Origin: Micromonospora rhizosphaerae | Lineage (GTDB): Bacteria; Actinomycetota; Actinomycetes; Mycobacteriales; Micromonosporaceae | Reading direction: 5' to 3' | NCBI RefSeq assembly: GCF_900091465.1 | Contig: NZ_FMHV01000002.1 | Span: 3,286,001 to 3,350,000, forward strand | DNA length: 64,000 bases | Shown here: one piece after another, positions 45,075 to 62,784 of the stretch | Layout: the number at the start of each line of letters is the position of its first letter | Numbering within the stretch: position 1 is the stretch's first letter | Program-made: the position numbers and the translations under genes | The notes under the pieces: generated by a model | Seen by the model: only the letters and a program-made list of their open reading frames with translations | Told to the model about the DNA's origin: nothing | The model's database searches: none

Positions 45075-45275
45075 TTGGCTGAACCCTGGCTGTCCGCCGA
45101 CGACATCGCTGCCCACCTTGGCGTCACGAAAGACACGGTCTACGCATGGATTGCCGAGAAGGGCATGCCAGCCCACAAGCTCGGCCGGCTTTGGAAGTTC
45201 CAAGCTAGCGACGTCGATGAGTGGGTGCGCGGCGGTGGCGCCGCCTCGTCGGGTGCCGATACGCGACCGGACTGA
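45075..45275 (+). CDS. Excisionase-type HTH regulator of BREX operon
   Basis: 66 residues from TTG 45075 with GGAGG upstream. LSADDIAAHLGVTKDTVYAW and IAEKGMPAHKLGRLWKFQAS followed by VDEWV is the standard helix-turn-helix 17/excisionase family. It lies 87 bases before brxA in the same direction, so it is a candidate repressor or activator of the BREX genes. Confidence 0.75.
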   Translation: MAEPWLSADDIAAHLGVTKDTVYAWIAEKGMPAHKLGRLWKFQASDVDEWVRGGGAASSGADTRPD

Positions 45276-45361
45276 CCCCTTGGCGCGACCAGTCGACCAC
45301 CGGAAGTGCCGGTGGGTTGCCATATCCTGAACGACTTGCCTGGAACTGGAAGGAGGTGCCC

Positions 45362-45988
45362 GTGGGTGAGGCCGCCACTACTACCCGCTACAGGCTCTCC
45401 TTCACCAGCGGTGCTCTTCTCATGCGAGAGGCGATGATCGCCGCACCGCTGTATCTGCGTGAACGTCACTGGTCAAAGGTGCGTGCGCTGATCGAGGGCG
45501 ACAACCTCCTGCAAGCCCGCACGGTTGCGTCGGGGCAGCGCTTCGCACGCGAGGTTGTGCAGCGGCTTGCCGTACTCGCCGATGACGAGATCGAGCTGCT
45601 CATCGAGGCGTCGGCCACCGAACGTGGATACCTGCTGTGGGCGGCTGCCTGCCGTCGCTACGACCTGATCGGCGAGTTCGCCGAGGAGGTCGTGCGCGAG
45701 CGGTTCCTCCTGTTGACCTCGGCGCTCACGTACGAGGACTTCGACAGCTTTGTCCGGGCTAAGGCGCTGTGGCACGAGGAGCTGGCCCAGATCAAGGACT
45801 CGACGCTGCAGAAGCTGAGGTCAAACGTGTTCAAGATGCTGCAGGAGGCCGAGTTGCTGTCGGAGGCGCGCTTCATCATGCCTGCCGTGTTGTCCGAGCG
45901 AGTTGCCGCCGAGCTCAGCGCTCGCACACCGAGTGATTTGCGGTTCTTCCCGACCCAGCAGACCGAAGGTCTGGGGGGCGGGCTGTGA
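45362..45988 (+). CDS. brxA: BrxA (DUF1819), BREX type 1
   Basis: 208 residues from GTG 45362, with GGAAGGAGG upstream. YRLSFTSGALLMREAMIAAP and NLLQARTVASGQRFAREVVQ are hallmarks of DUF1819/BrxA, a small helical DNA-binding protein of BREX. The stop overlaps brxB (GTGA). Confidence 0.9.
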   Translation: MGEAATTTRYRLSFTSGALLMREAMIAAPLYLRERHWSKVRALIEGDNLLQARTVASGQRFAREVVQRLAVLADDEIELLIEASATERGYLLWAAACRRYDLIGEFAEEVVRERFLLLTSALTYEDFDSFVRAKALWHEELAQIKDSTLQKLRSNVFKMLQEAELLSEARFIMPAVLSERVAAELSARTPSDLRFFPTQQTEGLGGGL

Positions 45989-46584
45989 TCCCGAAGACTC
46001 TGCCTGAGCAGGAGGAGCACCTGTTCGCGGTGCTCCGCGGCCGACGCTTCCTGCAGATGGAGGGCCTGAGCAACGAGGTCCCGTTCTTCATCTACCCATA
46101 TGCGCCTGAGGATGCGCTCGCCGTAGCGGCAGCCAAGAAGCGGATCAAGAACCGGCTGTCTAACGCTGGCGTCGCCGTCTTCGAGATCAACCTCTACGAC
46201 CTGTCAGTCGAGCTGCTCAAGGAGCGGGGTGTCTGGGGCCGGGTCCTGGCCATCGAGCCGGATCAGGACAAGGCAGACTTTCGCGAGATGCTTCAGGGGA
46301 TGCTTGACCCGCAGCTGCATATCGCCTCGGCGATCCGCGACCGGCTCGCGCAGGTGGACTTCGACGTCTTCTTCCTCACCGGGATCGGTGAGGTCTTCCC
46401 GTACATCCGTTCGCACAACGTGCTGAACAACCTGCAGTCGGTGGTCAAGGGCAAACCGATGCTCATGTTCTTCCCGGGGCGTTACGAGCAGTCCGACACG
46501 TTGGGCTCGTCGCTTGTTTTGTTCGGTCGGCTCAAGGACGACCAGTACTACCGAGCCAAGAACATCCTGGAACAGGAGGCGTGA
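45985..46584 (+). CDS. brxB: BrxB (DUF1788), BREX type 1
   Basis: 199 residues from GTG. NEVPFFIYPYAPEDALAVAA, NAGVAVFEINLYDLSVELLK and VFFLTGIGEVFPYIRSHNVL, then PMLMFFPGRYEQ, fit DUF1788/BrxB throughout its length. It is an essential BREX component that bridges to BrxC and PglZ. Four-base overlap with brxC. Confidence 0.92.
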   Translation: MIPKTLPEQEEHLFAVLRGRRFLQMEGLSNEVPFFIYPYAPEDALAVAAAKKRIKNRLSNAGVAVFEINLYDLSVELLKERGVWGRVLAIEPDQDKADFREMLQGMLDPQLHIASAIRDRLAQVDFDVFFLTGIGEVFPYIRSHNVLNNLQSVVKGKPMLMFFPGRYEQSDTLGSSLVLFGRLKDDQYYRAKNILEQEA

Positions 46585-49500
46585 GCTCGATGCAGCTCAA
46601 TGAGATCTTCGCCAAGAATATCCAGCGCCCGATCGAAGGCGTCATCAAGGCCGATGACGTCGCACACCTGAGCACCGAGGTCGACGAGTACGTCTTGACC
46701 AACGAGGCGGCTACGGGCCTGGAGGATCTGCTCGAGGAGTACACCTCCTATACCAATGCCAACGGCGTGTGGATCTCCGGCTTCTTCGGCTCCGGTAAGT
46801 CGCACATGCTCAAGATGCTCGCCCACCTGCTAGGGGACGTCGAAGGCCAGAGCTATCGGCGCCAGAACGCTTCCGACAGCTTCCGGGCCAAGACGCCCGA
46901 TGCCTTCCTGCCCGGCTTGCTCGACAAGGCCGACCGCATCCCGGCCAAGAGCCTTCTGTTCAATATCGACCAGAAGGCCACCCTGATCAGCAAGGACCAG
47001 ACCGACGCCCTGCTCAAGGTCTTCGTCAAGGTCTTCGACGAGAGCCGCGGCTACTACGGCAACCAGGGACACGTCGCCCGCTTCGAGCGCGACCTGGACA
47101 ACCGCGGACAGTACGAGGCGTTTAAGGAGACGTTCGAGCGGATCGCCGGCATCCCCTGGACGCAGGGACGCGAGCAGAGCGCGTTGGAAGGCCCGAGCAT
47201 CGACCGGGCCTTCGCCGAGGTAAACGGTGCGACTGCCGACGGCATCATCAAGCAGTACAGCGCCTCATACTCGGTCTCGATCGAGGACTTCGCCGACGAG
47301 GTCAAGGCCTGGCTCGACAAGCAGGGCGCCCCGAACTTCCGCCTCAACTTCTTCGTCGACGAGGTCGGCCAGTTCATCGGCTCGGACACCAAGCTGATGC
47401 TCAACCTGCAGACCATTGCGGAGTCGCTCAACACCAAGTGCGCCGGCCGCTCGTGGGTGTTCGTGACCTCTCAGGAGGACATGGAGAAGGTCATCGGCGA
47501 CCGCACCAGGCAGCAGGGCAACGACTTCTCCAAGATCCAAGCCCGGTTCAAGACCCGTTTGAAGCTCACCAGCGCCGACGTTGAGGAAGTCATCCGCAAG
47601 CGCCTGCTGGAGAAGAACAACGCGGGTGTGGCTACGCTGAGCAAGATCTATGCAGACCAGCACGCCAACTTCAAGACGCTCTTTGACTTCGTCGATGGGG
47701 CCAAGACCTACCGCAACTACACCGACGAGGCGCACTTCGTCGGGACCTACCCATTCGTCAGCTACCAGTTCCCGCTGTTCCAGGCCGCGATCGAGGGCAT
47801 CTCAGAACACAACGTCTTCGAGGGACGCAACAGCTCGGTCGGTGAGCGGTCCATGCTCGGCGTCGTCCAGCAGGTCGCCAAGGACATCGGCAACGTCGAC
47901 GTCGGCCAGCTCGCGACCTTCGACAGCATGTTCGCCGGCATCCGCGCGTCGCTGAAGTCCGCCGCCCAGCGTTCGATCGACGTTGCCGAGCGCAACCTCG
48001 ACAATCAGCTGGCGGTCCGGCTCTTGAAGGCGCTCTTCCTCGTCAAGTACGTCGAGAGCTTTCAGGCGACGCCGCGCAACCTCACGGTGTTGGTGTACGA
48101 CCGCTTCGGCCTCGACCTCCCCGCCCTGTCCGACCAGGTGAAGGAAGCGCTGACCCTGCTGGAGTCGCAGACCTACATCCGGCGCAACGCCAACGCGTAC
48201 GAGTACCTGACCAACGACGAGCAGGTCATCGAGGAAGAGATCAAGAACGTCGACATCGACGCCTCCGAGGTCAGCGCCCGACTGTTCAAGATCCTGTCCG
48301 GCGATGTCATCAAGAGCAACAAGATCCGCTATGCCAAGAACGGGCAGGACTTCCCATTCGGGTTCAAGCTCGACGACCAGGCTCATGGTGCCCAGCGGGA
48401 GCTGGCGGTCCACTTCATCTCGCCGGAGTACCCGCACTCCCCGGAAGAGATCCGCATGCACAGCGCGGGGAAGGATGAGCTGCGCGTCATCCTCGACCCG
48501 GACGCCCGGGTGCTGTCGGACCTGCGGCTGCTGATCAAGACCGAGAAGTACATCAAGCGCAAGCAGGGCACCTCGATCTCCGCGATCGAGGACCAGATCC
48601 TGCGGTCCAAGGGCGCGCAGAACATCGAGCGGGAGAAGGAGCTTATCGAGCGCGTCCGCAGCTCGGTCGGCAAGGCCACCCTGGTCATCAACGCCGCGGA
48701 CATCACCTCAAGCTCCCAGGACGCACTGACCCGGGTGGCCGATGGCTTCCACAACCTCATCAGCCGCACCTACACCCAGCTGAAGCTGCTCGGCGGTGTT
48801 ACCTTCAGCGAGCAGCAGGTCGCCTCGGCCGCGAACCCTGACAACGGTCTGTTCGAAGCCGGCACCTTGACCAAGCTTCCTGCCGAGGAAGTGCTGTCCT
48901 TCGTCATTCGCAAGGGGGGACTCGGGGAGCAGGTCACGGTCAAGGCCATCGTCGACACCTTCCAAGCCAAACCCTACGGGTGGGACCTCGCCTCGATCGA
49001 GGTCCTGATCGCCTTCCTGATCGGCACGTCCAAGGTCACGCTCACGGTCGACGGCAACCTTCTCAAGCGCTCCGAGGTCGCGACCGCCCTGCGTAACACC
49101 CAGAAGCACGCGCACGCCGTGGTGGCCCCGCAGAAGACGTTCGACGAGCGCAAGGTCGCCGCCTTCCGCAAGTTCTGCACCGATTTCTTCGACGAGCCCA
49201 ACGCCCCCACGGACCCGCTGGAGCTCGCGCGGCACGGTGCCGACAAGCTGACGGGCAAGCGCGACGAGCTCAAGGCCACCGCCGCGGGCTCCAAATACCC
49301 GTTCGTGAGTCAGCTCTCCGCCCCGATCGAGCTGCTTGACCACGTGGTCGGCAAGCCCGACGATTGGTATTTGACCGACTTCAATCTTGGCGATGACCTG
49401 CTTGACGCCAAGGAGAGCGTCATCGACCCGATCCAGGCGTTCCTGAGCGGCGGACAGCGGGTCATCTACGACGAGGCCGCCGACCTGCTGGCCACCCACA

Positions 49501-50051
49501 GCAGCAACCTCGGCTACCTGCTACCTGACAGCGACGCCACCGTCCGGGGCGCACTGGTCGACTCCAACGCCTTCCGTGGCAACCGGATGGCGCAGCTCAA
49601 GCAGGCAACCGACCAGCTGCGCGCCCAGATCGACGAGGTGGTGGCATCGAACCGGGCCGACGTGGTCCAGGCGATCGAGGGGCGCAAGGTCGAGCTCGAA
49701 GCGAGCGCCTTCTACGCAAAGGCGACTACGGACGCCCAGAAGAGCGTGATCCGGAGAGTCGACCAGGCGATTTCTCGCGTCCGCGGCGAGAAGCAGATCG
49801 CCCTGATCCGTGAGCTGGGGGCGAGCTTCGAGGAGACCGTCTACCCGGGTCTGCTCGACCAGCTGGCCGTCTCGCAGCAGGGCGGGGGCGACGACGCGCC
49901 GCCGCCGAAGCAAACCGTGTCCGTCAAGACCATCTCGGCTACTGGTGTCGGCGCGGTTCTTGAGACGGAGGAGGACGTCGACCGGTACCTCGCCGCCCTC
50001 CGCAATGTGCTCATCCAAACCCTGAACGACGGAAAGCGAATCTCACTCTGA
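46581..50051 (+). CDS. brxC: BrxC (BREX P-loop ATPase)
   Basis: 1156 residues from GTG 46581 (ATG 46590 also in frame). WISGFFGSGKSHMLKMLAHL (P-loop about residues 67-74) and the later FRLNFFVDEVGQFIG (Walker B region) match BrxC/PglY. It is a large ATPase required for BREX methylation and exclusion. The last base of the stop is the A of the pglX ATG. Confidence 0.93.
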   Translation: MSSMQLNEIFAKNIQRPIEGVIKADDVAHLSTEVDEYVLTNEAATGLEDLLEEYTSYTNANGVWISGFFGSGKSHMLKMLAHLLGDVEGQSYRRQNASDSFRAKTPDAFLPGLLDKADRIPAKSLLFNIDQKATLISKDQTDALLKVFVKVFDESRGYYGNQGHVARFERDLDNRGQYEAFKETFERIAGIPWTQGREQSALEGPSIDRAFAEVNGATADGIIKQYSASYSVSIEDFADEVKAWLDKQGAPNFRLNFFVDEVGQFIGSDTKLMLNLQTIAESLNTKCAGRSWVFVTSQEDMEKVIGDRTRQQGNDFSKIQARFKTRLKLTSADVEEVIRKRLLEKNNAGVATLSKIYADQHANFKTLFDFVDGAKTYRNYTDEAHFVGTYPFVSYQFPLFQAAIEGISEHNVFEGRNSSVGERSMLGVVQQVAKDIGNVDVGQLATFDSMFAGIRASLKSAAQRSIDVAERNLDNQLAVRLLKALFLVKYVESFQATPRNLTVLVYDRFGLDLPALSDQVKEALTLLESQTYIRRNANAYEYLTNDEQVIEEEIKNVDIDASEVSARLFKILSGDVIKSNKIRYAKNGQDFPFGFKLDDQAHGAQRELAVHFISPEYPHSPEEIRMHSAGKDELRVILDPDARVLSDLRLLIKTEKYIKRKQGTSISAIEDQILRSKGAQNIEREKELIERVRSSVGKATLVINAADITSSSQDALTRVADGFHNLISRTYTQLKLLGGVTFSEQQVASAANPDNGLFEAGTLTKLPAEEVLSFVIRKGGLGEQVTVKAIVDTFQAKPYGWDLASIEVLIAFLIGTSKVTLTVDGNLLKRSEVATALRNTQKHAHAVVAPQKTFDERKVAAFRKFCTDFFDEPNAPTDPLELARHGADKLTGKRDELKATAAGSKYPFVSQLSAPIELLDHVVGKPDDWYLTDFNLGDDLLDAKESVIDPIQAFLSGGQRVIYDEAADLLATHSSNLGYLLPDSDATVRGALVDSNAFRGNRMAQLKQATDQLRAQIDEVVASNRADVVQAIEGRKVELEASAFYAKATTDAQKSVIRRVDQAISRVRGEKQIALIRELGASFEETVYPGLLDQLAVSQQGGGDDAPPPKQTVSVKTISATGVGAVLETEEDVDRYLAALRNVLIQTLNDGKRISL

Positions 50052-53000
50052 TGGAAACCGCACCGTTGAAGTCGTTCGCCACGTGGGCGCGCACGGGGCT
50101 CATCCGCGAGGTCGCCGCTCGCGTAGCCGTGGTGCTGGCTCCCGCCTCGCCTGAGCGGGTGGAGCAGCGGAGGGCTGTTGAAGCCTTGGAAAAGGCGGTC
50201 GACGCAGCGGGCGGCGGAGAAAGCGGCAAGACAGCAGTCGCAGACCGGGTCGCCTACACCTGGTTCAACCGCATTATTGCTCTGAGGTTCATGGACGCCA
50301 ACGGGTATACCGGCATCGGTGTCGTCTCCCCGCAGTCCGGCATCGAGAGCGGCCAGCCCGAGATCCTCGCCGAGGCTAAGCGCGGCAACATCGACGTCAC
50401 GGTCATCGGCACCAAGACCCGCGAGACGGTCACGGGTCTCCTCAACGGCACCCGTCGCAGTGAAGACCCGCAGGGCGAGGCCTACGCCCTGCTGCTCGCG
50501 GACTACTGCCGCTACTGGAACCGTGCCATGCCGTTCATGTTCGAACGGGAGGGCGATTTCACCGAGCTGCTGATACCCGCGAACTTGCTGGCAGACGACT
50601 CGGTGCTCAACCGCGGTGTCAAGGTCCTGACCACTGATGTCTGCCGAGATGTCGAGGTCATCGGCTGGCTCTACCAGTTCTACATCTCAGAGCGGAAGGA
50701 CGAGGTGTTCGCCGGCTTCAAGAAGAACAAGAAGGCCGGTGCTGCCGAGATTCCTGCAGCGACCCAGCTCTTCACGCCGCACTGGATTGTCCGCTACCTC
50801 GTCGAGAACTCGCTCGGCCGCCTCTGGATGCTCAATCGGCCGTCCTCTCGCCTCGCCGAACGGATGGAGTACTACATCGCCCCGGTCGACGAGGAGACCG
50901 ACTTCCTCAAGATCAGCAGCCCCGAAGAACTCAAGGTCATTGACCCCGCCTGCGGCTCGGGCCACATGCTCACCTACGCCTTCGACCTCCTGTATGCGAT
51001 CTACGAGGAAGAGGGCTATGCGCCGGCCGAGATCCCCGGACTCATCCTCACCAACAACCTGTACGGCGTCGAGATCGACCCGCGCGCCGGGGCACTCGCG
51101 GCCTTCGCCCTGAGCATGAAGGCTCGCGCCAGGCAACGGACGTTTTTCAACAAGCAAGTCGAGCCGAACGTGTGCGCGCTTGAGCCGATCCACTTCACGC
51201 CGCAGGAGCTCGACCTGCTCCTGTCACCCTCGGTCGACCGGCATGAAGAGATCGCATTCTGGAATCAGTTCGCGCGAGCAGACTTGTATGGCTCGTTGAT
51301 CAGGCCCGATGCGAGTTTGATCGGCACCCTCCGCGCTCACGTTGAGGTGGTCGGTGTTGAGGCCGACCTGCTCGCGTCGGATGTCGTCAGGCGAGCGAAG
51401 CAAGTCCTCCGTCAGGCTGAGGCACTGTCTCCAGAATATGCGGTCGTGGTGACGAACCCGCCATACATGGGATCCAAGAACATGACTGGAGACCTTGCGG
51501 ACTGGTCCAAGGTGCACTGGCCGACCAGTCGATTCGACTTTTTTGCGATGTTCATGGAACGCGGCATGCAGCTTTGTTCTCCGCAGGGGTGCGTCGCCAT
51601 GATAACCATGCAAAGTTGGATGTTCTTGTCGACTTTCGAGCCACTGCGCGAATCAATACTCTCGCGCAAGACGGTTCGCCTCCTGGCACATTTGGGGCCA
51701 AGTGCGTTCGAGGGATTGTCGGGGGAGGTCGTGTCGACGACCGCGTTCGTCATCTCAAACGTTCATGTTCCGAATGCTGTTGGAGATTACATCCGGCTGG
51801 TGGATTTCGTGGCGGCGTCCGCAAAACGCGCGGGGTATCTTTCTGCGCTCACGGACCCAGACTGTACGTACCGATTCCGAGTGGCAACGGACGACTTCGC
51901 ATCACTGCCAGGAAAGCCGGTTGCTTACTGGATCGACGTCCCACTGAGGGAGTCTTTCGCGACGCCGCTCCTCGGTCGACTCGTCATAACGGAAGGGCAG
52001 AACAAGACCGCGAACAATGATCGGTATCTTCGTCGATCGTGGGAAGTTTCGCGGTCGGCGCTGGGCGAGGACGCGAGGTGGATCCCATACGCCAAGGGCG
52101 GTCCCTTCAGACGTTGGTACGGAAACGTGGAGTACGTAGTCGACTGGTCCCGGTCGGCGCGGGAGGAATATCGAAGGAACGCTAGTTGTCGTATCGTGGA
52201 CGAGCGGTTCTGGTACCTGCCCGGCATCACATGGACGGATATTTCTACAAGCGGGTCGGGATTCCGGTGGCTTCCCGAGGGTGGAACCTTCGACATGTCC
52301 GGGCCTGTGGTGTTCCTCTCCGACGGGACGCGTTACCTCAATGTCCTCGGTGTCCTGAACTCCGGGTTCTCGTGGAAAGCCCTAGGTTTTCTGAATCCCA
52401 CCTCTCATATCCAGTTGAAGGACGTCAAGAATGTCCCGGTGTCTGATCGACTCCTGCATGACAAGGAATTGGCTGAGCTGGTAGGCGCGAATGTGGCGTG
52501 GTCGAAAGGCGACTGGGATAAGCTGGAGATATCAATGGGCTACGCGGGTAGTCCGTTGACGTCTACGGGGGTGTCGCTACTTCGGAACGCCGTTGATGAC
52601 GAGGTTGAGAGGATATTTCAGGGAAGCGAGGAGGTGATCGCGCGCGAGGCGCGAATCGACGAGCTGGTATCGGCGGAGTACGGCATACTGGAATATCGCC
52701 CCTCGTACGCCTCACCTAGGGCGTTGGTGAACAATATTGAGTACCGCGTCGGGAAGGTGCTCAACCGAGACGACGCGTTTTTCGTTCGTCGACTTTTGGT
52801 GGAAGATCTGGTTTCCTATGCCGTTGGCTGCCTGTTCGGCCGCTACAGCCTGGATGAGCCAGGCTTCATGCTCGCCGACCAGGGTGCGACCCTGCAGGAC
52901 TTCCTCAGCAGGGTTGCGAACCCCACGTTCATGCCGGACGCAGACAACGTCATCCCGATCGTGGACGGCGACTGGTTCGAGGACGACATCGTTGCGCGCT

Positions 53001-53524
53001 TCCGCGCGTTTCTCCGTGTGGCCTTCGGTGAGCAGCACTTCGAGGAGAACCTGCACTTTGTCACTGAGTCTCTCGGCGTCAAGGACATCCGTGACTACTT
53101 CGTGAAGTCCTTCTACAAGGACCACGTCCAGCGGTACAAGAAACGCCCGATCTACTGGCTCTTCTGCAGCCCCAAGGGCTCGTTCAGCGCGCTCATTTAC
53201 ATGCACCGCTATACGCCCTCCACGGTCTCGACGGTGCTCAACGAGTACCTGCGCGAGTTCACGGCCAAGTTGACCTCCAGCCTGCAGCGGCAGGAGCGTC
53301 TCGCCGCTGGTGGCGGGACGCCGCGTCAGCAGGCGGCTGCCCAGAAGGAGGCTGACCGGCTCCGCAAGGTGCTGCTGGAGCTCGGGGAGTACGAGCACGA
53401 TGTTCTGTACCCGCTGGCGTCTCGGCAGCTCTCGATCGACCTGGACGACGGCGTGAAGGTGAACTACCCGAAGTTCGGCGCCGCGTTGAAGAAGATCCCC
53501 GGCCTTGCGGCAAGCGATGAGTGA
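50051..53524 (+). CDS. pglX: PglX (BREX adenine-specific DNA methyltransferase)
   Basis: 1157 residues from ATG 50051, sharing a base with brxC's stop. VIDPACGSGHMLTYAF (about residue 297) is the SAM-binding motif I and VVVTNPPYMGSK (about 467) is the NPPY catalytic motif of N6-adenine methylases. The C-terminal half recognises the target. From about 51250 to 52790 GC content and third-position bias drop clearly and then recover, which suggests a replaced specificity segment. I saw no homopolymer or repeat that would support phase variation. Confidence 0.93.
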   Translation: METAPLKSFATWARTGLIREVAARVAVVLAPASPERVEQRRAVEALEKAVDAAGGGESGKTAVADRVAYTWFNRIIALRFMDANGYTGIGVVSPQSGIESGQPEILAEAKRGNIDVTVIGTKTRETVTGLLNGTRRSEDPQGEAYALLLADYCRYWNRAMPFMFEREGDFTELLIPANLLADDSVLNRGVKVLTTDVCRDVEVIGWLYQFYISERKDEVFAGFKKNKKAGAAEIPAATQLFTPHWIVRYLVENSLGRLWMLNRPSSRLAERMEYYIAPVDEETDFLKISSPEELKVIDPACGSGHMLTYAFDLLYAIYEEEGYAPAEIPGLILTNNLYGVEIDPRAGALAAFALSMKARARQRTFFNKQVEPNVCALEPIHFTPQELDLLLSPSVDRHEEIAFWNQFARADLYGSLIRPDASLIGTLRAHVEVVGVEADLLASDVVRRAKQVLRQAEALSPEYAVVVTNPPYMGSKNMTGDLADWSKVHWPTSRFDFFAMFMERGMQLCSPQGCVAMITMQSWMFLSTFEPLRESILSRKTVRLLAHLGPSAFEGLSGEVVSTTAFVISNVHVPNAVGDYIRLVDFVAASAKRAGYLSALTDPDCTYRFRVATDDFASLPGKPVAYWIDVPLRESFATPLLGRLVITEGQNKTANNDRYLRRSWEVSRSALGEDARWIPYAKGGPFRRWYGNVEYVVDWSRSAREEYRRNASCRIVDERFWYLPGITWTDISTSGSGFRWLPEGGTFDMSGPVVFLSDGTRYLNVLGVLNSGFSWKALGFLNPTSHIQLKDVKNVPVSDRLLHDKELAELVGANVAWSKGDWDKLEISMGYAGSPLTSTGVSLLRNAVDDEVERIFQGSEEVIAREARIDELVSAEYGILEYRPSYASPRALVNNIEYRVGKVLNRDDAFFVRRLLVEDLVSYAVGCLFGRYSLDEPGFMLADQGATLQDFLSRVANPTFMPDADNVIPIVDGDWFEDDIVARFRAFLRVAFGEQHFEENLHFVTESLGVKDIRDYFVKSFYKDHVQRYKKRPIYWLFCSPKGSFSALIYMHRYTPSTVSTVLNEYLREFTAKLTSSLQRQERLAAGGGTPRQQAAAQKEADRLRKVLLELGEYEHDVLYPLASRQLSIDLDDGVKVNYPKFGAALKKIPGLAASDE

Positions 53525-56015
53525 CGCTGCCACGGTCCGCCCGCACCTGGAGCGGTGGTTCGAGACCCGCCGGGTCGTCTTCTGGCGCGACCCGGACGGC
53601 CAGTACGCCGCCGACCTGGAGGATCTCGAGCTGCTGGGTGTCCATACGATCCGCGTTGCCAACGACGAGTTCGGTATCAAGAACCGACTCCTGCACGACG
53701 AGCCGACGAGCAAGTTCCTCGTGTACCGCTCCGGTCAGGTGCCGACGGGCATCGGGAACTGGCTGCTTGACCTCGAGCTTGCCTACGGAGTCTTCACAGC
53801 CGATCACACTACCCTCGTTGCGCAGGATCTCGGCCTCACTGGCACGGGCATCGACGAGGTCGTTCAGACTCACGAAAAGTTCTTCAACGCGACCAAACGC
53901 GTCCAGAGCCTCAAGGCTCGGCTGAGTCCCGAGGACGATTCCACCGACCTGCGCGCCAAGATGACCGCGGTGCTGCTTAATCTCAAGGACTCCCACAGCC
54001 TGCTGGAGATCACCCGCACGCTGCTCACGGAGAACGCTCGAGGGCTCCACACGAAGTACGACGCGCTCGTCGATTACGGCCTCGACGACTTTTACTGGCG
54101 CGGCGTCGCTGGTATCTACGGCTACGAGTCGGGCTCGCCGAGCATCGACGATCTGGTGCTGTGGATCTTCCGCAAGGCCATTGAGGGCTTCAAGTCTGAC
54201 CGACCGGGTGGCCTGCAAAACATCCAGCTCGACTTTGCAAGCCTGCGCAACGACCGGCGCAGCCAGGAGGCGCTCGCCACGCTCGCCAAGCGCGCGGCAC
54301 GTGACCTCGATTACACCTCGATGATCGAGGATGTTAGCTTCCGTGAGCTGGTGGCCGTGGATCTGTTCGAGGAGATCGACCAGAAGATAATCAGCGACCT
54401 GTCGCATGCAGTGGCCGCGCAGATGATCACCCCGCACGAGGTCGCCGAGGTCGTACGGGCGCGGCAGAGCAGCGTGTGGATCGACGGTTACCGGCGGCTC
54501 TACACGGCGGTCGCCAACGCCTCCGAACTGCTGGGCGAGATTGCCTCGCTGGATCTTGGGATGCAATCGTTCGACGACGGGCTGGAGAACTACCGTCGGA
54601 AGTGGTTCCGCATCGACCAGCTCTACCGGCAGTTCGTCTACGCGGCACGTACGGCCGAGTACCCGAAGCCGCTCGAAGCACTGCGGGAGCAGGTCGAGAA
54701 GCGCTACACCAACAAGTTCGTCTACGAGCTGGGCAATGCCTGGCAGCAGCAGGTGGATCAGGTCGACAGGTGGCGCTCGACCGCACTTCGCTCGCAGACG
54801 GGCTTCTACGCCGGCTACGTGGAGCCGCTTGTGCGCGACGGCGACAAGAAGGGCGTCGTCATCATCTCTGACGCGCTCCGTTATGAGGTGGCCGACGAAC
54901 TCCGCTCACGCATTCGGAAGGAAGACCGCTTCGACGCCACGCTTGACGCCGTCCTCGGGGTGCTGCCGAGCTACACACAGCTCGGGATGGCGGCGCTTCT
55001 GCCGCACTCGGCGCTCAAGCACTCCGCCGATGCCAAGACGGTGCTCGCGGACGGCCAGCCGACGAACGGCACCGCCTTCCGTGGAAAGGTCCTCGAAAGC
55101 GTCGGCGGCGCAGCTATCCAGGCCGAGGACTTCAAGGCCCTGAACGCCGACGAGCGGCGTGAGCTTTACAAGGCCAACCGAGTCCTGTACGTCTACCACA
55201 ACCGAATCGACGCCACCGGCGACAAGCCTGGCACCGAACGGCAGGTGTTCGAGGCCGTAGAGGACACGCTCCGTGACCTCGTCGACCTCGTGAAGAAGCT
55301 GGCCAGCGCCAACGCTACAAACATCTTCATCACGGCTGACCACGGCTTCCTGTTCCAGGACGAGGCCCTGGGCGAGACATTTTTTCTGTCGACCCGGCCG
55401 CAGGGCGACGACATCAAAGTCGTCAATCGACGGTACGTGCTGGGGCGCGGCCTCAAGGTCGACAACGGCCTCGCGACCTTCGATGCCGCTCATCTCGGGC
55501 TCCAGAGCGACCTTGAGGTGCAGATCCCCAAGTCGATCCATCGACTCCGCCTTGCCGGCGGGGGATCAAGGTTCGTCCACGGTGGGGCGACGCTCCAGGA
55601 GATCGTCGTTCCCGTGCTGGCCGTGAACAAGAAGCGCAAGAGCGACACCAGACTGGTCAACGTCGAGGTGTGGCCCGAGTCCGACAAGATCACGACAGGG
55701 CAGGTCGTCGTTCGACTGTTCCAGTCTGAGCCAGTCACCGATAAGGTCCAGCCACGCACGCTCCGGGCCGGGCTCTACGTCGGCGAGGCCCTGATCTCGA
55801 ATCTTGCCCACCTAACCTTCGACCAGATCTCAGCCGACAAGCGAGACCGGTACCAGAGCGCACAGATGCTCCTCAGCCAGGACGCCAACGACTACAACAA
55901 TCGTGCCGTCGAGTTCCGCCTGGAGGAGCGCATCCCCAACACCAACCAGTGGCGCGTTTACGCGAAGGCGATCTACATGCTGAAGCGTTCGTTCGCATCG
56001 GACTTCGACTTCTGA
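53517..56015 (+). CDS. pglZ: PglZ (alkaline-phosphatase-fold BREX protein)
   Basis: 832 residues from ATG 53517, overlapping pglX by 8 bases. VVIISDALRYEVADELRSRI (about residue 448) and NIFITADHGFLFQDEALGE (about 602) are the metal-binding motifs of the PglZ domain. N-terminal WFETRRVVFWRDPDGQY is the usual BREX-type opening. PglZ is essential for BREX; its enzymatic role, possibly a metal-dependent hydrolase, is not fully settled. Confidence 0.93.
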   Translation: MSDAATVRPHLERWFETRRVVFWRDPDGQYAADLEDLELLGVHTIRVANDEFGIKNRLLHDEPTSKFLVYRSGQVPTGIGNWLLDLELAYGVFTADHTTLVAQDLGLTGTGIDEVVQTHEKFFNATKRVQSLKARLSPEDDSTDLRAKMTAVLLNLKDSHSLLEITRTLLTENARGLHTKYDALVDYGLDDFYWRGVAGIYGYESGSPSIDDLVLWIFRKAIEGFKSDRPGGLQNIQLDFASLRNDRRSQEALATLAKRAARDLDYTSMIEDVSFRELVAVDLFEEIDQKIISDLSHAVAAQMITPHEVAEVVRARQSSVWIDGYRRLYTAVANASELLGEIASLDLGMQSFDDGLENYRRKWFRIDQLYRQFVYAARTAEYPKPLEALREQVEKRYTNKFVYELGNAWQQQVDQVDRWRSTALRSQTGFYAGYVEPLVRDGDKKGVVIISDALRYEVADELRSRIRKEDRFDATLDAVLGVLPSYTQLGMAALLPHSALKHSADAKTVLADGQPTNGTAFRGKVLESVGGAAIQAEDFKALNADERRELYKANRVLYVYHNRIDATGDKPGTERQVFEAVEDTLRDLVDLVKKLASANATNIFITADHGFLFQDEALGETFFLSTRPQGDDIKVVNRRYVLGRGLKVDNGLATFDAAHLGLQSDLEVQIPKSIHRLRLAGGGSRFVHGGATLQEIVVPVLAVNKKRKSDTRLVNVEVWPESDKITTGQVVVRLFQSEPVTDKVQPRTLRAGLYVGEALISNLAHLTFDQISADKRDRYQSAQMLLSQDANDYNNRAVEFRLEERIPNTNQWRVYAKAIYMLKRSFASDFDF

Positions 56016-56031: not shown

Positions 56032-58155
56032 ATGAGCGAGACCGAGAACGAGGCGCCCGACGCCGGCGCACCACAGCAGAGCGACCTCGACTTCAAGATT
56101 AATCTTCTGTTCCCCGGCGTGGTCGTCCGCAAGGACCTAGTCAAGGCCGTCAAGGGCAACGCCATCGTGCCGTCGTACGTCCTCGAGTACCTGCTCGGGC
56201 AGTACGCGGCCTCCGACAACGAGGCCACCATCCAGGCGGGTATCGACACGGTGCGCAAGATCTTGGCCGATCACTATGTGCACCGGAACCAGTCCGAGCT
56301 GGTGAAATCTACGATCCGCGAACGAGGGCGGCACCGCATCATCGACAAGGTGACCGCCACGCTCAACGAAAAGGCCGACGTGTACGAGGCGGAGTTCGCC
56401 AACCTCGGCATCAAGGGCGTGCTTGTCGAACCCGCGACGATCAAGGCCCATCCGAAGCTGCTCGTCGGCGGCGTCTGGTGCATCTGCGACATCGAGTACT
56501 TCCACAGCGACGATGCGCGAGCCGTGCCGTGGATTCTCGGCTCAATCAAACCCATCCAGTTGTCGAGATTCGACTTCCAGGGCTACCTGGTTGCCCGACG
56601 GGAGTTCACTACCGACGAGTGGATCGACCTGCTAGTGCAGTCCATCGGGTTCAACCCCGAGTTGTTCGGTCGGCGAGCCAAGCTCATCCAGCTTGTGCGG
56701 CTCATCCCATTCGTCGAGCGCAACTACAACCTCGTGGAACTCGGTCCCAAGGGCACCGGCAAGTCGCACCTCTTTTCGGAGTTCTCGCCCCACGGCATGC
56801 TCATCTCCGGCGGAGAGGTCACGGTCCCGAAGCTGTTCGTCAACAACGCCAACGGGCGCATCGGCCTGGTCGGCTATTGGGATGTCGTCGCCTTCGACGA
56901 GTTCGCAGGCAAGAAGAAGCGGGCGGACAGGGCGCTCGTCGACATCATGAAGAACTACATGGCGAACAAGTCGTTCTCGCGCGGCGTTGAGACCCTCGGC
57001 GCGGAGGCGTCGATGGTGTTCGTCGGCAACACCTCGCACACCGTGCCGTACATGCTCAAGCACTCCGACCTGTTCGACGAGCTGCCCGACAGCTACCACG
57101 ACTCGGCCTACCTCGACCGGCTGCACCACTACATTCCGGGCTGGGAGGTCGATACCATCCGCGGGGAGATGTTCTCCAGCGGCTACGGGTTCGTCGTGGA
57201 CTACATCGCCGAGGTGCTCAAGTCGATGCGCTCGGCGGACTACTCGGACCGTTACCAACAGCACTTCACGCTCTCGTCGGACATCTCAACCCGTGACCGT
57301 GACGGCATCCACAAGACCTTCTCCGGGCTGATGAAGATCCTCTACCCAAACGGGGAGGCCACGCCTGAGGAGATCGAGGAGATCCTCCGGTTCGCGATCG
57401 AGGGCCGCAAGCGCGTCAAGGACCAGATCCTGCGCATTGACTCGACGATGGTCGACGTCAAGTTCGGTTATCTGGACACCGGTGGAGTCTGGCACTCGGT
57501 CTCGACCCTCGAAGAGGACGAGTACCCGGCCTACTACTACCGCGAGCGCCGCGAGGGTGCCGAGACCGCTGACGATGGAGGCGAACCGAGGCCAGGTGGC
57601 CCGGCGCCGATCGCGGAGGCAGAAGCACAGCGCGAGCCCGCGCCGGTCGCCGAGCCGCCGCTGTTCGAGGGGCACCGGGATTTCCAGGAAAACCAGCGTG
57701 GCGTCTCATTCGACACGCTCGTCATCCCTTACCTGCGCGGTGCGGGGCAGATCACGATCATCGACCCCTACATTCGTCAGTTCCATCAGGCCCGCAACCT
57801 CATGGAACTCATCGAGGGGATCGCCAGGACGAAGGACGCAGCGGACGAAGTCCACGTCAAGCTGATCACGGCGGAGAACATCGAGGGGGGCGCGGACAAG
57901 CTGCGCAAGCAGCTTGAGTTCCTCCTCAGGATCAAGCAGGGTGCGGCGGTCGGGGGCGTAAACTTTGACGTCGCGTTCGACAACACAATCCACGATCGCT
58001 CGATCGTCACGGACACCGGCTGGAGAATCCTCCTCGGCCGCGGCCTCGACATCTTCCAATACGTCACTGGTGACGCATTTGACCTCGCGACCAAGCTCCA
58101 AGAGTTCCGCCAGGTCAAGGCATTCGGGATAACCTTCATCCGCGAGAGCGAGTGA
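56032..58155 (+). CDS. brxL: BrxL with MIT_C/PLD-like C-terminal domain
   Basis: 707 residues from ATG 56032 with GGAAGGAGG 5 bases upstream. Residues about 20-500 are the BrxL AAA+ core: YNLVELGPKGTGKSHLFSEF (Walker A), VVAFDEFAGKKKRADRALVD (Walker B), YLDRLHHYIPGWEVDTIRGE and EIEEILRFAIEGRKRVKDQI. The usual Lon-like C-terminal fold is absent. After an acidic linker, residues 550-707 read FDTLVIPYLRGAGQITIIDP, then TIHDRSIVTDTGWRILLGRG, LDIFQ and VKAFGITFIRES, which match the phospholipase-D-like MIT_C domain. The HKD-type catalytic pattern is not complete, so it may be a binding domain. Confidence 0.88.
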   Translation: MSETENEAPDAGAPQQSDLDFKINLLFPGVVVRKDLVKAVKGNAIVPSYVLEYLLGQYAASDNEATIQAGIDTVRKILADHYVHRNQSELVKSTIRERGRHRIIDKVTATLNEKADVYEAEFANLGIKGVLVEPATIKAHPKLLVGGVWCICDIEYFHSDDARAVPWILGSIKPIQLSRFDFQGYLVARREFTTDEWIDLLVQSIGFNPELFGRRAKLIQLVRLIPFVERNYNLVELGPKGTGKSHLFSEFSPHGMLISGGEVTVPKLFVNNANGRIGLVGYWDVVAFDEFAGKKKRADRALVDIMKNYMANKSFSRGVETLGAEASMVFVGNTSHTVPYMLKHSDLFDELPDSYHDSAYLDRLHHYIPGWEVDTIRGEMFSSGYGFVVDYIAEVLKSMRSADYSDRYQQHFTLSSDISTRDRDGIHKTFSGLMKILYPNGEATPEEIEEILRFAIEGRKRVKDQILRIDSTMVDVKFGYLDTGGVWHSVSTLEEDEYPAYYYRERREGAETADDGGEPRPGGPAPIAEAEAQREPAPVAEPPLFEGHRDFQENQRGVSFDTLVIPYLRGAGQITIIDPYIRQFHQARNLMELIEGIARTKDAADEVHVKLITAENIEGGADKLRKQLEFLLRIKQGAAVGGVNFDVAFDNTIHDRSIVTDTGWRILLGRGLDIFQYVTGDAFDLATKLQEFRQVKAFGITFIRESE

Positions 58156-58233: not shown

Positions 58234-58553
58234 ATGGCACGATCGAGCAAGTACTCAGCTGATTTCCGCGTCCGGGCGATGCGCCTGGTGACGGAGGCCG
58301 GGCCGGAGCACGACACCGAGTGGGCGGCGATCACGTCGGTGGCGCACAAGCTCGGGGTCAGCAGTGAGATGCTGCGCAAGTGGATCCGGCAGGCCGAGGT
58401 CGACGCCGGCCAACGGCCGGGACCACGCCGGATGAGTCCGCAGAACTCAAGCGGTTGCGGCGGGAAAACGCCGAGCTGCGTCGGGCGAACGAGATCCTGA
58501 AGGCGGCGAGCGCGTTTTTCGCCGCGGAGCTCGACCGCCCCGGGCCGAGATGA
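58234..58553 (+). pseudogene. IS3-family orfA, frameshifted
   Basis: SKYSADFRVRAMRLVTEAGP and [20 protein letters not shown] are the OrfA helix-turn-helix. Near 58420 one base is missing, after which the right frame reads [20 protein letters not shown] and [15 protein letters not shown]. Its TGA overlaps the orfB ATG (ATGA). Normal OrfA proteins are in one frame, so this is a lesion. Confidence 0.7.
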
Positions 58554-59082
58554 TCCGCTTCGTCGACGAGCACAAGGATCGTTTCGGGGTCGAGCCGATC
58601 ATCGGTGTCCTGCGGGGTACTGATGCCGGGTTTCTGTCCGTGTCTGGCTACTACGCGGCCAAGACCCGGCCGCCATCGCCCCGCAGCATGGCCGACGCCG
58701 TGTTGGGTGAGCGGATCCGGCAGACGCACGAGACGAACTACGGGGTCTACGGGGTGCGGAAGATGCACGCCGTGCTGCGCCGTGATGGTGTGCAGATCGG
58801 ACGCGACCAGGTGGGTCGGCTGATGCGTCAGCTCGGGTTGGCCGGTGTGCGCCGGGGCAAGCCCAAACGCACCACCGTCACCGATACCGCAGCTACTCGG
58901 CCCGCGGACCTGGTCAAGAGGCAGTTCACCGCCGCGAAGCCGAACCAGCTGTGGGTATGCGACATGACCTATATCCGAACTTGGGTCGGCTTCGCCTACC
59001 TGGCCCTGGTCATCGACGTGTACTCCCGGCGCCTGGTCGGCTGGGCCCTCACCACCCACCTGCGCGCGGACAGCGCCGGGTA
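58550..59082 (+). pseudogene. IS3-family orfB, truncated
   Basis: From ATG 58550: [40 protein letters not shown] and QLWVCDMTYIRTWVGFAYLA (first catalytic Asp of the integrase fold). It ends in frame at about HLRADSAG, where homology breaks, so the second Asp and the Glu are missing. Confidence 0.75.
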
Positions 59083-59840
59083 CTTCCCATCCCGGTCGCG
59101 GATGAGGTATCGAACGTTCGACGTGACGTCCTGCAGGTCCATGAACAGGTTCCGGGCGGCCTGGGTCACCCAGGCGGCGGTCGGGTGCGCGGTCGCGCCG
59201 AGGATCCGGATGCGGCGGTTGGCGTGCTCAATGGCCGCGAGGATGTACATCCTCGTGCCGGTGAGCGTCATCCTCTCGATGAAGTCTGCTGCCAGCAGCG
59301 CTTCGGCCTGCGGCGCGCAGGAACTGCGTCCAGGCGGTGGCGGCCCGGTCCGGGCCGGGATCGATGCCCGCCTCGCGCAGGATCTCCCAGACCGTGGACG
59401 CGGCGACTTTCACTCCCAGGGTGAGCAGTTCGCCGTGCACCCGCCGATACCCCCACGACGGGTTCTCCCGCACCACGCGCAGCACCAGCGCGCGGATCGA
59501 GCGTACGGTGCGCGGCCGGCCTCGCCGGCGGGGCCGCGACGCCGCCGCGTGGCGACGTGCGGCAGGTCGCGATGCCACCGCAGAATTGTGTCGGGACGTA
59601 CCAGCAGCCGCAGACGGTGCAACGTGGGCCTCGGGAGGCGGTGTAGCAGCGCGGCCAGCAACGCCCGATCGGCTGGTTCGAACCGGACGCGTCGCTCGTC
59701 GAGCTGGCGCTGCAGCACCGCGAGCTGGTGGCGTAACGCGAGGATCTCCGCGTCCTTGTCCCGGTCGCTGCCCGGCAACAGCCGCAGTAGTGCGGCGACG
59801 TTCGTGAGGCCCAGGTACGGAAGTCGCCGCAGCATGACAC
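59083..59840 (-). pseudogene. Degenerate integrase-core transposase remnant
   Basis: Minus strand, three frames. ILALRHQLAVLQRQLDERRV starts near 59760, SIRALVLRVVRENPSWGYRR continues in a second frame from about 59545, and RMYILAAIEHANRRIRILGA with LIRDRDGKYPALS in a third, up to the junction at 59083. The third catalytic residue is missing. It lies tail to tail with the IS3 fragment, as expected of nested insertions followed by deletion. Confidence 0.75.
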
Positions 59841-59973
59841 GGCATCATCGCGCAGCCATCAACGGAGATGGGCAAGGAGGACCCGCGTCGGAAAGGCAAG
59901 ACCGGTTCCCAGGCCCGAACAGCCTCTGAGCAGCCCGGACGAATTTCTCGGCAGGCACAGGGTCTCGCCTGCG

Positions 59974-62784
59974 TTAGCGCGCTGGCGCGCCGCGTGGGCT
60001 CGGGTTACGGCGCCTCCGGCAGGGGCGCTCCGGCTCCAGGGGGCGGCGATGGTCATGGACCCCCGGGGTGGCCAGGTCCATGGTGAGGGCCCTGGCGAGC
60101 GCTGGGGGGAGCGGGATACGGGCGGCTTGACGTTCGGTGGCCCACTCGGAGCTGTCGGGGGACTCGCCCATGACGATGCCGAACCAGCGTTCGCGGTCCT
60201 TGACGACCCGGAACATCTTCTCGTCGTGGGTGCCGCCGACGTACGGCTCGTAGACGACGACAGGCTGGCCGACCCGGGCGGCTCGGGAGCCGATGCGGTC
60301 GACGCGGCCGGTGCGCTGCTCCAGTGTGCTGGGGTTCCAGTCCAGGTCGTGGTGGATGACATGGCGGCAGGCGTGGTGGAGGTCGACGCCCTCGGCCATG
60401 ACACTGCTGGCGATGAGTACCTCGGGGAAGAATGGGGTGTTGAACGTCTGCATGAGCGTTTCGCGGGTGGCCGGCTTCGCCTCCCCGTTGACTAGGCGGA
60501 CGTTGGGTAGAAGCACCTCGCGGTCGTGGGAGTGCTCGGAGGTGTCGAAGTGTTCGCTGGTGACGCGGATGCCGCCGGTCTGGATGCTGGCGAGCGCGTG
60601 GAGCACGTCGTCGCGCTCCTTGTCGACCTGTTGGGCAAGGGCGGCGGCGAAGGCACTGATCTGGTCTGCGAAGGTGGCGCCAGCCGCGCCGCGGTCCAGG
60701 CCAGCGAGTAGCCCCTCGATGGTCAGGTTGGGGGAGAGGTCAACATAACGGGTCAGGAACGAGGGCGTACGCATGAAGCGGACCGCGATGTCCTGCGCCC
60801 GTTGTGCCGTCTCGTCATCGAGTCCATTGAGGTAGCTGGCGACTCGTTCCCGGAAGGCGTCGTACCCGCTGACATCGCTGCGTAGCAGACGCTCGGCGAT
60901 CGCGTCGACCTCAGCTAGCACGTCGTCGCCGGCGGGCCCCCCGAGGGCCTGCGCGGCCCGGTCGATGATCTCCCGACGGATGGCGCGCGAGATGTGATTG
61001 CGCAGGGCACGGCCGGTCTCGCGGTAGAAGCAGAAGACCAGGACCTTCTCGCCGCGCCGCCATAGGTCGACCACGCGGCTGACAGTCGCGGCGACCTTCG
61101 GATGCGCCGCCCAGCCGTCGACGGTGTCGTGCGGCAGGGCGGTCTTGATGCGCTCGACGTACCACCGGAGTTGGTCCTCCGCGGCGGTGGCGGACGTGTC
61201 CGGCGTGTAGCCGTCGGGTGTTTCGAGGTCGTCGAGCTCGGCGATCCGGTGGGCTCTCGTGTCGGCGTAGGCCTCGAAGGATGAGGCGAGCCCGTAGGCG
61301 TAGTATCCCCGCACCGGGCTGGCCTTGCCCGCGTTGTGGAGGTTTGCGATCGCCTCGGCGCGGGCGGCGAGCAGAAACGGCAGAACTGCGTCGCCTTCGA
61401 CGGTCAGGCCGGAACCCGTGTCACGTCCGTCCAGGATCGCCCGGCCGGGGTGGTAGTCGCGACGCCGAGTCCGGCTGGCCCTGGTGTGTCGGATGACCCA
61501 TGGGCGCAGCAGCTTCTCGGCCGATCGGAGCTCGTCGTGCGCTGCGGCTGCGGCGGTGATCGCCGTACGGACCCGCTCAGATTGCCCTTCCTCAATTTCG
61601 AATGTGCCGACGGAGGCAACCTGGGGGGCGTCGGACTCCTCGAGCCGCGACCAGGCCCGTTCCAGCCGCAGCGCAGCAGCACGACTTCGGTTGAGCCCGT
61701 TCTGGATTTCTTCAACCTGGTCGTCGAACCGCTCCCGCGCCGCCTGCGACGACCAGCGCACGCCATGGAATCTACGCAAGATCCGGATCAGCTCGTCATG
61801 GTTAAGCTGGAACGGCGTGGCGGTGAGGAACAGCATCCTGTCGAACATGTTTCCCAGCGCGCCGCGCTCGTCAACAGTGTTGGCAAAGAGGTCACCGAGC
61901 TGGGTCCTGTTCTTGACGTGGTGGGCCTCGTCGAGTATCAGCAGCGGCAGCCGGACATCCAGGCGCTGCAGGGCCCCCTTCCAGACCTCGCCAAGTGCCC
62001 ACTCGAGCTGTGCCCGAGCGACCTTGAGGCGCTCTTCCAGGTTGGCGGTGCGGTAGACAGGAACGGCGGCCAGCGCCTGCCGAAGGTCCTCGAGGTCGAG
62101 CCCGGATACGGCGTCGAGCAGTGCCGCAGGCACGGGGTCGTCGTCGAGCGGATCCTCGGGTTGACCCCGGTCCCACACCTGCTTCCACCGGCCCGGTTGT
62201 TTCTCGAGCAGCGTCGCCACCAAGGCCTGGCCCGCCGCACCCCGGAACCGGCGTTCCCGCAGCAGTGCGTGGGCATGCTTGGCCAGCACCCGGCGGTGCT
62301 TGTCCCGATCGCGGTCGTAGCGGGTCGCCTGGCGCAGCAGGGCGAGCCGGATCAGCGGGTCGGTGAGCCTGCTGGTGAGCGCAGTGTGCGTGGCGAAGAT
62401 GAGGTGCTGGCGCTCCTCAGGGGGGTCGTCGAGCAGCTTGAGCAGGTCACTGCCTCGCTTGACCGGCCGCGACCCGCGCAGCCCGTGGCCGGGCGGGAGG
62501 CAGTGCTCGGCGAAGACCTGCCACTCGCGGGGCCACTTCTCGGCGACCGCCGCTGGGACCAGGACGACGACGGGGTTGGCCCGCCCGGTTGCTTCCAGGA
62601 CGGAGACCGCCACTGCGAGGGCAACGTAGGTCTTGCCCATACCGACCTCGTCGGCGAGCACCACGCCGGGCTGATCGGCCAGGGAGCGCAGGATGGCGTC
62701 GGCTGTACGCAGCTGCCGCGCGGCGTCCTGGGTGGATACCCGACCAGCCGTAGCGAGATTGATCCCAGGTGTCAGTGGCCACAC
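59974..62784 (-). CDS. SNF2-type helicase of defence-like pair
   Basis: 936 residues from GTG 62784, which overlaps the PLD gene by 13 bases. SF2 motifs in order: I VVLADEVGMGKTYVALA (about residue 42), II LLILDEAHHVKNR (about 285), III MLFLTATPFQLNHDEL, IV KVLVFCFYRETG, V LIASSVMAEGVDLHHACRHV, VI NPSTLEQRTGRVDRIGSR. Large inserts lie between. Genes of this kind next to a phospholipase-D-fold protein occur in phage-defence loci such as DISARM class 1 (DrmD/DrmC) and others. The last about 30 residues (RRPLEPERPCRRRRNPSPRG) look frameshifted or disordered; the IS remnant lies 130 bases away. Confidence 0.8.
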   Translation of the reverse strand: MWPLTPGINLATAGRVSTQDAARQLRTADAILRSLADQPGVVLADEVGMGKTYVALAVAVSVLEATGRANPVVVLVPAAVAEKWPREWQVFAEHCLPPGHGLRGSRPVKRGSDLLKLLDDPPEERQHLIFATHTALTSRLTDPLIRLALLRQATRYDRDRDKHRRVLAKHAHALLRERRFRGAAGQALVATLLEKQPGRWKQVWDRGQPEDPLDDDPVPAALLDAVSGLDLEDLRQALAAVPVYRTANLEERLKVARAQLEWALGEVWKGALQRLDVRLPLLILDEAHHVKNRTQLGDLFANTVDERGALGNMFDRMLFLTATPFQLNHDELIRILRRFHGVRWSSQAARERFDDQVEEIQNGLNRSRAAALRLERAWSRLEESDAPQVASVGTFEIEEGQSERVRTAITAAAAAHDELRSAEKLLRPWVIRHTRASRTRRRDYHPGRAILDGRDTGSGLTVEGDAVLPFLLAARAEAIANLHNAGKASPVRGYYAYGLASSFEAYADTRAHRIAELDDLETPDGYTPDTSATAAEDQLRWYVERIKTALPHDTVDGWAAHPKVAATVSRVVDLWRRGEKVLVFCFYRETGRALRNHISRAIRREIIDRAAQALGGPAGDDVLAEVDAIAERLLRSDVSGYDAFRERVASYLNGLDDETAQRAQDIAVRFMRTPSFLTRYVDLSPNLTIEGLLAGLDRGAAGATFADQISAFAAALAQQVDKERDDVLHALASIQTGGIRVTSEHFDTSEHSHDREVLLPNVRLVNGEAKPATRETLMQTFNTPFFPEVLIASSVMAEGVDLHHACRHVIHHDLDWNPSTLEQRTGRVDRIGSRAARVGQPVVVYEPYVGGTHDEKMFRVVKDRERWFGIVMGESPDSSEWATERQAARIPLPPALARALTMDLATPGVHDHRRPLEPERPCRRRRNPSPRGAPAR

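Follow-up and report, generated by a model that had tools for sequence, protein, structure and literature searches.

Within the 64,000-nucleotide stretch of the Micromonospora rhizosphaerae genome analysed here (contig NZ_FMHV01000002.1, positions 3,286,001 to 3,350,000; hereinafter the window), the last gene of a complete type 1 bacteriophage exclusion (BREX) operon encodes a BrxL protein whose Lon-like C-terminal domain is replaced by an MIT_C domain, the phospholipase D (PLD)-like domain of human MITD1. The open reading frame, its coordinates and the motifs quoted from it agree with a preliminary description of this DNA. The features of the gene are as follows.

56032..58155, + strand: brxL, 707 residues, last gene of the operon (Pfam, NCBIfam and PADLOC matches)
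56107..56499, + strand: BrxL_N, residues 26-156 (PF20442, E 1.3e-46)
56533..57447, + strand: BrxL AAA+ ATPase core, residues 168-472 (PF13337, E 5.4e-127)
57538..57666, + strand: A/P/E-rich linker, residues 503-545 (composition; predicted-structure confidence)
57700..58140, + strand: MIT_C or PLD-like tail with the MITD1 fold, residues 557-703 (PF16565, E 1.4e-35)
57991..58014, + strand: H654-x-R656-x4-D661, an HKD-like motif with R for K (conservation among 105 tails)
58036..58050, + strand: GRGLD motif, residues 669-673 (G671 and D673 in 105 of 105 tails each)

The protein is a BrxL, as both BrxL_N and a complete BrxL AAA+ ATPase are present and the gene sits with brxA, brxB, brxC, pglX and pglZ. 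Its likeness to Lon-type BrxL ends with the core. Specifically, the match to TIGR02653 (Lon-type BrxL, 675 positions) stops at model position 470 and reaches 586.0 bits, below the cut-off of 628.25, which places the window BrxL outside the Lon type, and Acinetobacter BrxL (8emc, 679 residues) aligns only up to residue 492. TIGR02688 (449 positions) is covered from 2 to 449. The linker contains eight residues each of E, A and P and is only mildly acidic (D+E 10 versus K+R 5), and the structure model is low in confidence at 507-539. The MIT_C match exceeds the cut-off of 25 bits with a score of 122.7 and spans model positions 1-141 of 142; the tail searched alone gives E 6.6e-37. Among solved structures, human MITD1 is the sole match at E <= 0.01 (4a5z, E 3.2e-14), and the predicted single-chain structure of the tail adopts the PLD-like MITD1 fold. 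The window BrxL is also the sole match to PF16565 at E <= 0.001 in its own genome. A hidden Markov model (HMM) that we built from 39 Lon-type tails matched no MIT_C tail at E up to 10, and the MIT_C HMM matched none of 48 other BrxL tails at the same limit. A divergent Lon fold was rejected, since the Lon HMM is without a match and the fold is that of MITD1. These results confirm the domain replacement, bearing out the preliminary description on the core, the linker, the nature of the tail and the absence of the Lon-like fold.

The architecture recurs elsewhere, a possibility that the preliminary description had raised. From 127 MIT_C-labelled frames in the fetched loci, 105 distinct BrxL MIT_C tails were retained after removal of repeat entries for one gene, of those truncated by the end of a contig and of those shorter than 180 residues. 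H654 is kept in 104 of the 105 tails, R656 likewise, and D661 in 89 (N in 14, S in 2), with the complete HRD triad in 87. Q586, T613, W664, G671, D673 and R693 are invariant. The HKD endonuclease motif, HxKxxxxD, is absent in its strict form, with K replaced by R in the window BrxL and in 104 of 105 tails. The HRD positions of human MITD1 read H, R and N. Conservation of the H/R/D site indicates that a phosphate-binding or catalytic site is strongly constrained. As a sequence pattern, it is compatible with a nuclease and a ligand-binding site alike and cannot discriminate between them.

The MIT_C tail swap in BrxL is real and widespread. A scan of genome contigs with a BrxL alignment gave at least 591 stretches and at least 546 relatives, of which the best 80 of 546 were used; these span many phyla, but were picked by similarity to the window BrxL and are hence biased to the MIT_C tail. 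Three phylum samples were therefore drawn regardless of tail type. In the Actinomycetota phylum, 396 genomes gave 24 BrxL places in 23 genomes: 10 with Lon, 6 with Schlafen AlbA_2, 5 with MIT_C (including the window), 1 with a kinase and 2 unassignable. In the Pseudomonadota phylum, 299 genomes gave 12 places, 6 with Lon, 5 with MIT_C (one of these being the centre genome, selected for having MIT_C) and 1 below the cut-off. For the phylum of a Clostridiales metagenome-assembled genome (249 genomes), 30 of at least 40 places were classified, as 21 Lon, 8 tail-less and 1 MIT_C; among the remaining 10, 2 are below the cut-off, and the centre genome (G398) carries MIT_C.

Conversely, MIT_C over the Pfam cut-off lies almost always in a BrxL frame: at all 5 places in the Actinomycetota phylum (246 genomes), at all 5 in the Pseudomonadota phylum (349 genomes) and at 17 of 20 in the Bacteroidota phylum (296 genomes). 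The three Bacteroidota places outside BrxL are a protein with Sel1 repeats to which MIT_C is fused (L151, 790-3414; Pfam), a stop-bearing fragment (L153) and a weak match (L154). Further Pfam-confirmed fusions join MIT_C to a dynamin-like GTPase in Thiodictyon (L026, 6628-9471) and to IF2_N in Paenarthrobacter (L122, 601-1959). Sub-cut-off PF16565 matches (L133-L136, L156) were discarded as chance; by eye they look like ABC-transporter ATPases, with the signature motif. On plasmids, tblastn with the BrxL tail returned 25 records, the majority annotated as BrxL.

The slot accepts other domains as well. Schlafen AlbA_2 occupies it in place of Lon or MIT_C in six BrxL proteins from Actinomycetota-phylum genomes (L002, L004, L006, L016, L019, L022), all above the PF04326 cut-off; L203 is the same gene as L016, the L006 BrxL frame holds a stop and the L019 tail ends at the contig end. 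In G289 (L021/L204), a BrxL adjoining PglZ type B has a protein kinase as its 341-residue tail (PF00069, E 1.3e-33). Together with the Schlafen tails, this kinase tail suggests that BrxL is built as an AAA+ ring whose C-terminus serves as a socket for interchangeable domains.

The solved Lon-type BrxL structures offer a frame for what the tail may do. There, the N-terminal and ATPase domains make a ring, while the C-terminal domain, distant from DNA and without protease residues, links two rings tail to tail. PLD enzymes with a single motif work as dimers, building the active site, and paired BrxL tails could therefore both join rings and form a site. Judging from sequence and the structure model, we put roughly even weight on the following reading: the window BrxL belongs to the PLD-tailed lineage described by Rakesh & Krishnan (PMC12839542), sits in an intact type 1 operon and carries a domain that is specifically MIT_C, and its paired tails hydrolyse phosphodiester bonds. 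BrxL rings would assemble on invading DNA via their N-terminal and ATPase domains; the flexibly tethered tails would pair up as in the single-motif enzymes and build the active site; and the pair would cut phosphodiester bonds, most likely those of the phage DNA onto which the ring has loaded. The tail phosphodiesterase would thus take the place of a Lon-like domain that joins rings and is catalytically dead. Most simply, a PLD-like domain with a constrained HRD site in the Lon slot would add a phosphodiesterase, a role likewise proposed for the replacement tail in PMC12839542. The preliminary description had supposed altered target recognition; a catalytic or regulatory role is at least as likely. 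Naming the tail a DNase from its fold alone is unsafe, because the work on its closest studied relative, MITD1, concerns membrane binding and cytokinesis.

That relative lends some credit to a tail that does not cut at all, which we consider a real possibility, if not a probable one. The MIT_C domain would then be a non-catalytic module binding a phosphate ligand (a lipid head group, a nucleic acid end or a nucleotide) or a partner, and would either bring BrxL to the membrane site of phage DNA entry or link rings tail to tail in the manner of the Lon-like domain. The title of the MITD1 structure paper calls this nearest solved relative a membrane-binding PLD fold, MIT_C fused to dynamin exists, and the Lon-like domain being replaced is itself structural and non-catalytic. 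Loss of the motif aspartate in 16 of 105 tails points the same way, whereas the near-complete retention of H654 and R656 and the invariance of D673 and R693 go beyond what a scaffold needs, although ligand binding could suffice as an explanation.

Alternatively, phage DNA may not be the target of the tail. It could, for instance, be a phosphodiesterase of lipids or RNA that damages the infected cell; BrxL would then be the sensor, and the Schlafen and kinase tails would be effectors of a similar kind. Lipid hydrolases do occur among PLD-superfamily enzymes, and 7 of the 24 Actinomycetota-phylum places have Schlafen AlbA_2 (six) or a kinase (one) in the same slot. We nevertheless consider this unlikely: we met no link of BrxL itself to cell death in the literature consulted, and Lon-type BrxL restricts phage though its C-terminal domain is without protease residues. 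An assembly or annotation artefact (a frameshift or chimeric read) was rejected as having next to no probability, with no support for it found at the window locus and 105 distinct BrxL proteins, some from named isolates of several phyla, reading through into the tail in frame.

How BREX blocks phage is still debated. For phosphodiester hydrolysis by the tail, the near-invariant H and R of a PLD-superfamily site in a large BrxL lineage give a direct, mutable test of BrxL enzyme activity.

The preliminary description tied the tail to a BREX subtype. We tallied 162 distinct BrxL genes by the best-matching upstream PglZ lineage, which could not be called usably for 37; the reference PglZ types were taken from NCBIfam and from L029 and L030 as annotated, and the 6-like references score below that model's cut-off. 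Most MIT_C tails occur with PglZ type A (86, against 3 with 6-like, 1 with divergent and 19 with unknown PglZ), in a sample enriched in relatives of the window BrxL, and to this extent the tie holds. It fails as a rule, because PglZ A, B and 6-like each carry more than one tail type, so that tails cross PglZ lineages. Lon tails occur with A (21), B (12), 6-like (2, at 91-110 bits) and unclear or unknown PglZ (4); Schlafen tails with B (1), 6-like (1) and unknown (3); and the kinase tail with B (1). For the 8 tail-less rows, no PglZ assignment was usable. Tail type as equivalent to BREX subtype was thus rejected, and type 1 loci do not all share one tail, those with PglZ type A carrying either MIT_C or Lon.

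A tree of the BrxL core with 75 rows (39 Lon, 22 MIT_C thinned from 96, 8 tail-less, 5 Schlafen and 1 kinase) implies no fewer than 7 changes of tail, of which 3 concern MIT_C versus the rest. A single clade of MIT_C-tailed BrxL is rejected when the DUF4007-type L023 and long branches are included (approximately unbiased test, p 0.001). It is not rejected (p 0.319) in the 64 rows that remain once L023, two long Lon rows and all rows lacking a tail are taken out; repeated gain within type 1 is therefore unsupported, and the proposal that BrxL acquired MIT_C several times is weakened. Two other arrangements were seen in these operons: a pair annotated as AbiEi/AbiEii that separates pglZ from brxL on a Rhodococcus opacus plasmid (L036, 5985-7414), and an open reading frame between pglX and pglZ in G228 that looks like AlbA_2 by eye (L206, 13310-14938).

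BrxL with the MIT_C tail also adjoins DUF4007 and an SspC-like large ATPase at two loci, G060 (L201, L208; G060:C25) and G888 (L202; G888:C10). Both further encode an Eco57I-type N6-methylase, a small AAA-like protein and a protein in the position of PglZ, which is above the Pfam PglZ cut-off in L201 and below it in L202. An Abditibacteriota plasmid (AP024153.1, L212) has the same gene order, with a large ATPase 29% identical to the L202 counterpart, a tail-less BrxL of 485 residues and a 795-residue PglZ-position protein without a Pfam match; the tail is thus present in two of three hybrid DUF4007 loci. In PMC12839542, DUF4007 is a type 4 component, 3'-phosphoadenosine 5'-phosphosulfate (PAPS) reductase is present in 406 of 457 taxa, type 4 BrxL is without a C-terminal extension and HKD tails are specific to type 1. 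No PAPS reductase was seen among the scanned proteins of the DUF4007 loci, for which no family search aimed at it was made. Type 1 and phosphorothioate type 4, as described there, both fail to fit these loci.

Human MITD1 is closer to some BrxL tails than the window tail is. Over a 123-residue stretch of MITD1, the best bacterial matches are L137 (48% identity), L191 and L035 (46% each), with L034 at 44% and the window tail at 34%. MITD1 groups with L034 (Hymenobacter), L035 (Thioflavicoccus), L191 and L137 with support of 98/99 (33 rows) and 99/99 (29 rows), human MITD1 being the single eukaryotic sequence in these trees. Among the 101 BrxL tails outside this lineage, those scoring at least as high as MITD1 number 0 against L191, 0 against L137, 1 against L035 and 8 against L034. 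An affinity of MITD1 to this lineage, as read from sequence, is thus supported. The PglZ of L034 and L035 is nearest the type 6 model, and that of L191 resembles that of L035. The alternative tree, with the bacterial tails as a clade of their own that excludes MITD1 and two outgroups on very long branches, has p 0.069; the bootstrap is unsettled, with the outgroups apart. Given this value and the unfixed root, nesting of MITD1 within BrxL tails is unsupported, as is any direction of descent. Tentatively, and without calling it probable, we propose that the MITD1 domain arose from a BREX BrxL tail or that the two have an immediate common ancestor; if the domain did come from BREX, a cell-division factor would trace to a phage defence protein. 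Among the papers listed for MITD1 with bacteria, PLD or BREX, none concerns a bacterial homologue by its title.

The other operon genes in the window are as follows.

45221..45988, + strand: brxA (PF08849, E 2e-50)
45985..46584, + strand: brxB (PF08747, E 2.8e-40)
46581..50051, + strand: brxC (NF033441, 1124 bits)
50051..53524, + strand: pglX, BREX-1 adenine methyltransferase (NF033452, 1229 bits)
53505..56015, + strand: pglZ type A (TIGR02687, 719 bits)

PglX, PglZ type A and BrxC all exceed their NCBIfam cut-offs, which assigns the system to type 1. Downstream of brxL lie IS3-like transposase pieces (58234-59929) with matches to HTH_Tnp_1 and HTH_21; the rve domain is matched in part only (2-48 of 102), so the element may be broken. 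It adjoins a SNF2-type helicase of 936 residues (59974-62784, - strand), possibly a further defence gene.

The tail swap is not new, being already published at scale (PMC12839542) and modelled in PADLOC (PDLC02508). In that paper, 1030 of 2913 type-1 BrxL have a C-terminal 'HKD-endoDNase'. This BrxL-HKD class shares with the window BrxL the N-terminal and ATPase core, replacement of the Lon-like domain, a single HRD motif with R for K and a type 1 operon with PglZ; the window BrxL has all its hallmarks (H654, R656 and D661, a type 1 operon, no Lon). Because the HRD motif is common to both, we infer that the HKD tail and MIT_C are one domain. 'MIT' is absent as a whole word from the main text of that paper, and the tail there is type 1-specific, whereas here it also stands beside DUF4007 and an SspC-like ATPase. 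Literature on BrxL with MIT_C, by title and abstract, contained nothing bearing on the bacterial tail, and that on BrxL with Schlafen comprised PMC12839542 only, where Schlafen appears as separate proteins or in references. PDLC02508 (698 positions) covers residues 17-705 at 1138.8 bits; it gives a profile name only and no tail function. Acinetobacter BrxL and TIGR02653 share the core with the window BrxL but have a Lon-like C-terminus instead of MIT_C. In human MITD1 (4a5z, 2ymb), the C-terminal domain is preceded by an ESCRT-III-binding MIT domain, and N replaces the motif D. The PLD nucleases Nuc, BfiI, NgoAVII and SauUSI are 8-15% identical to the tail, HKD enzymes having K where the window has R. 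To this picture the present analysis adds the MIT_C/MITD1 identity of the tail, the Schlafen and kinase tails, and the hybrid loci.
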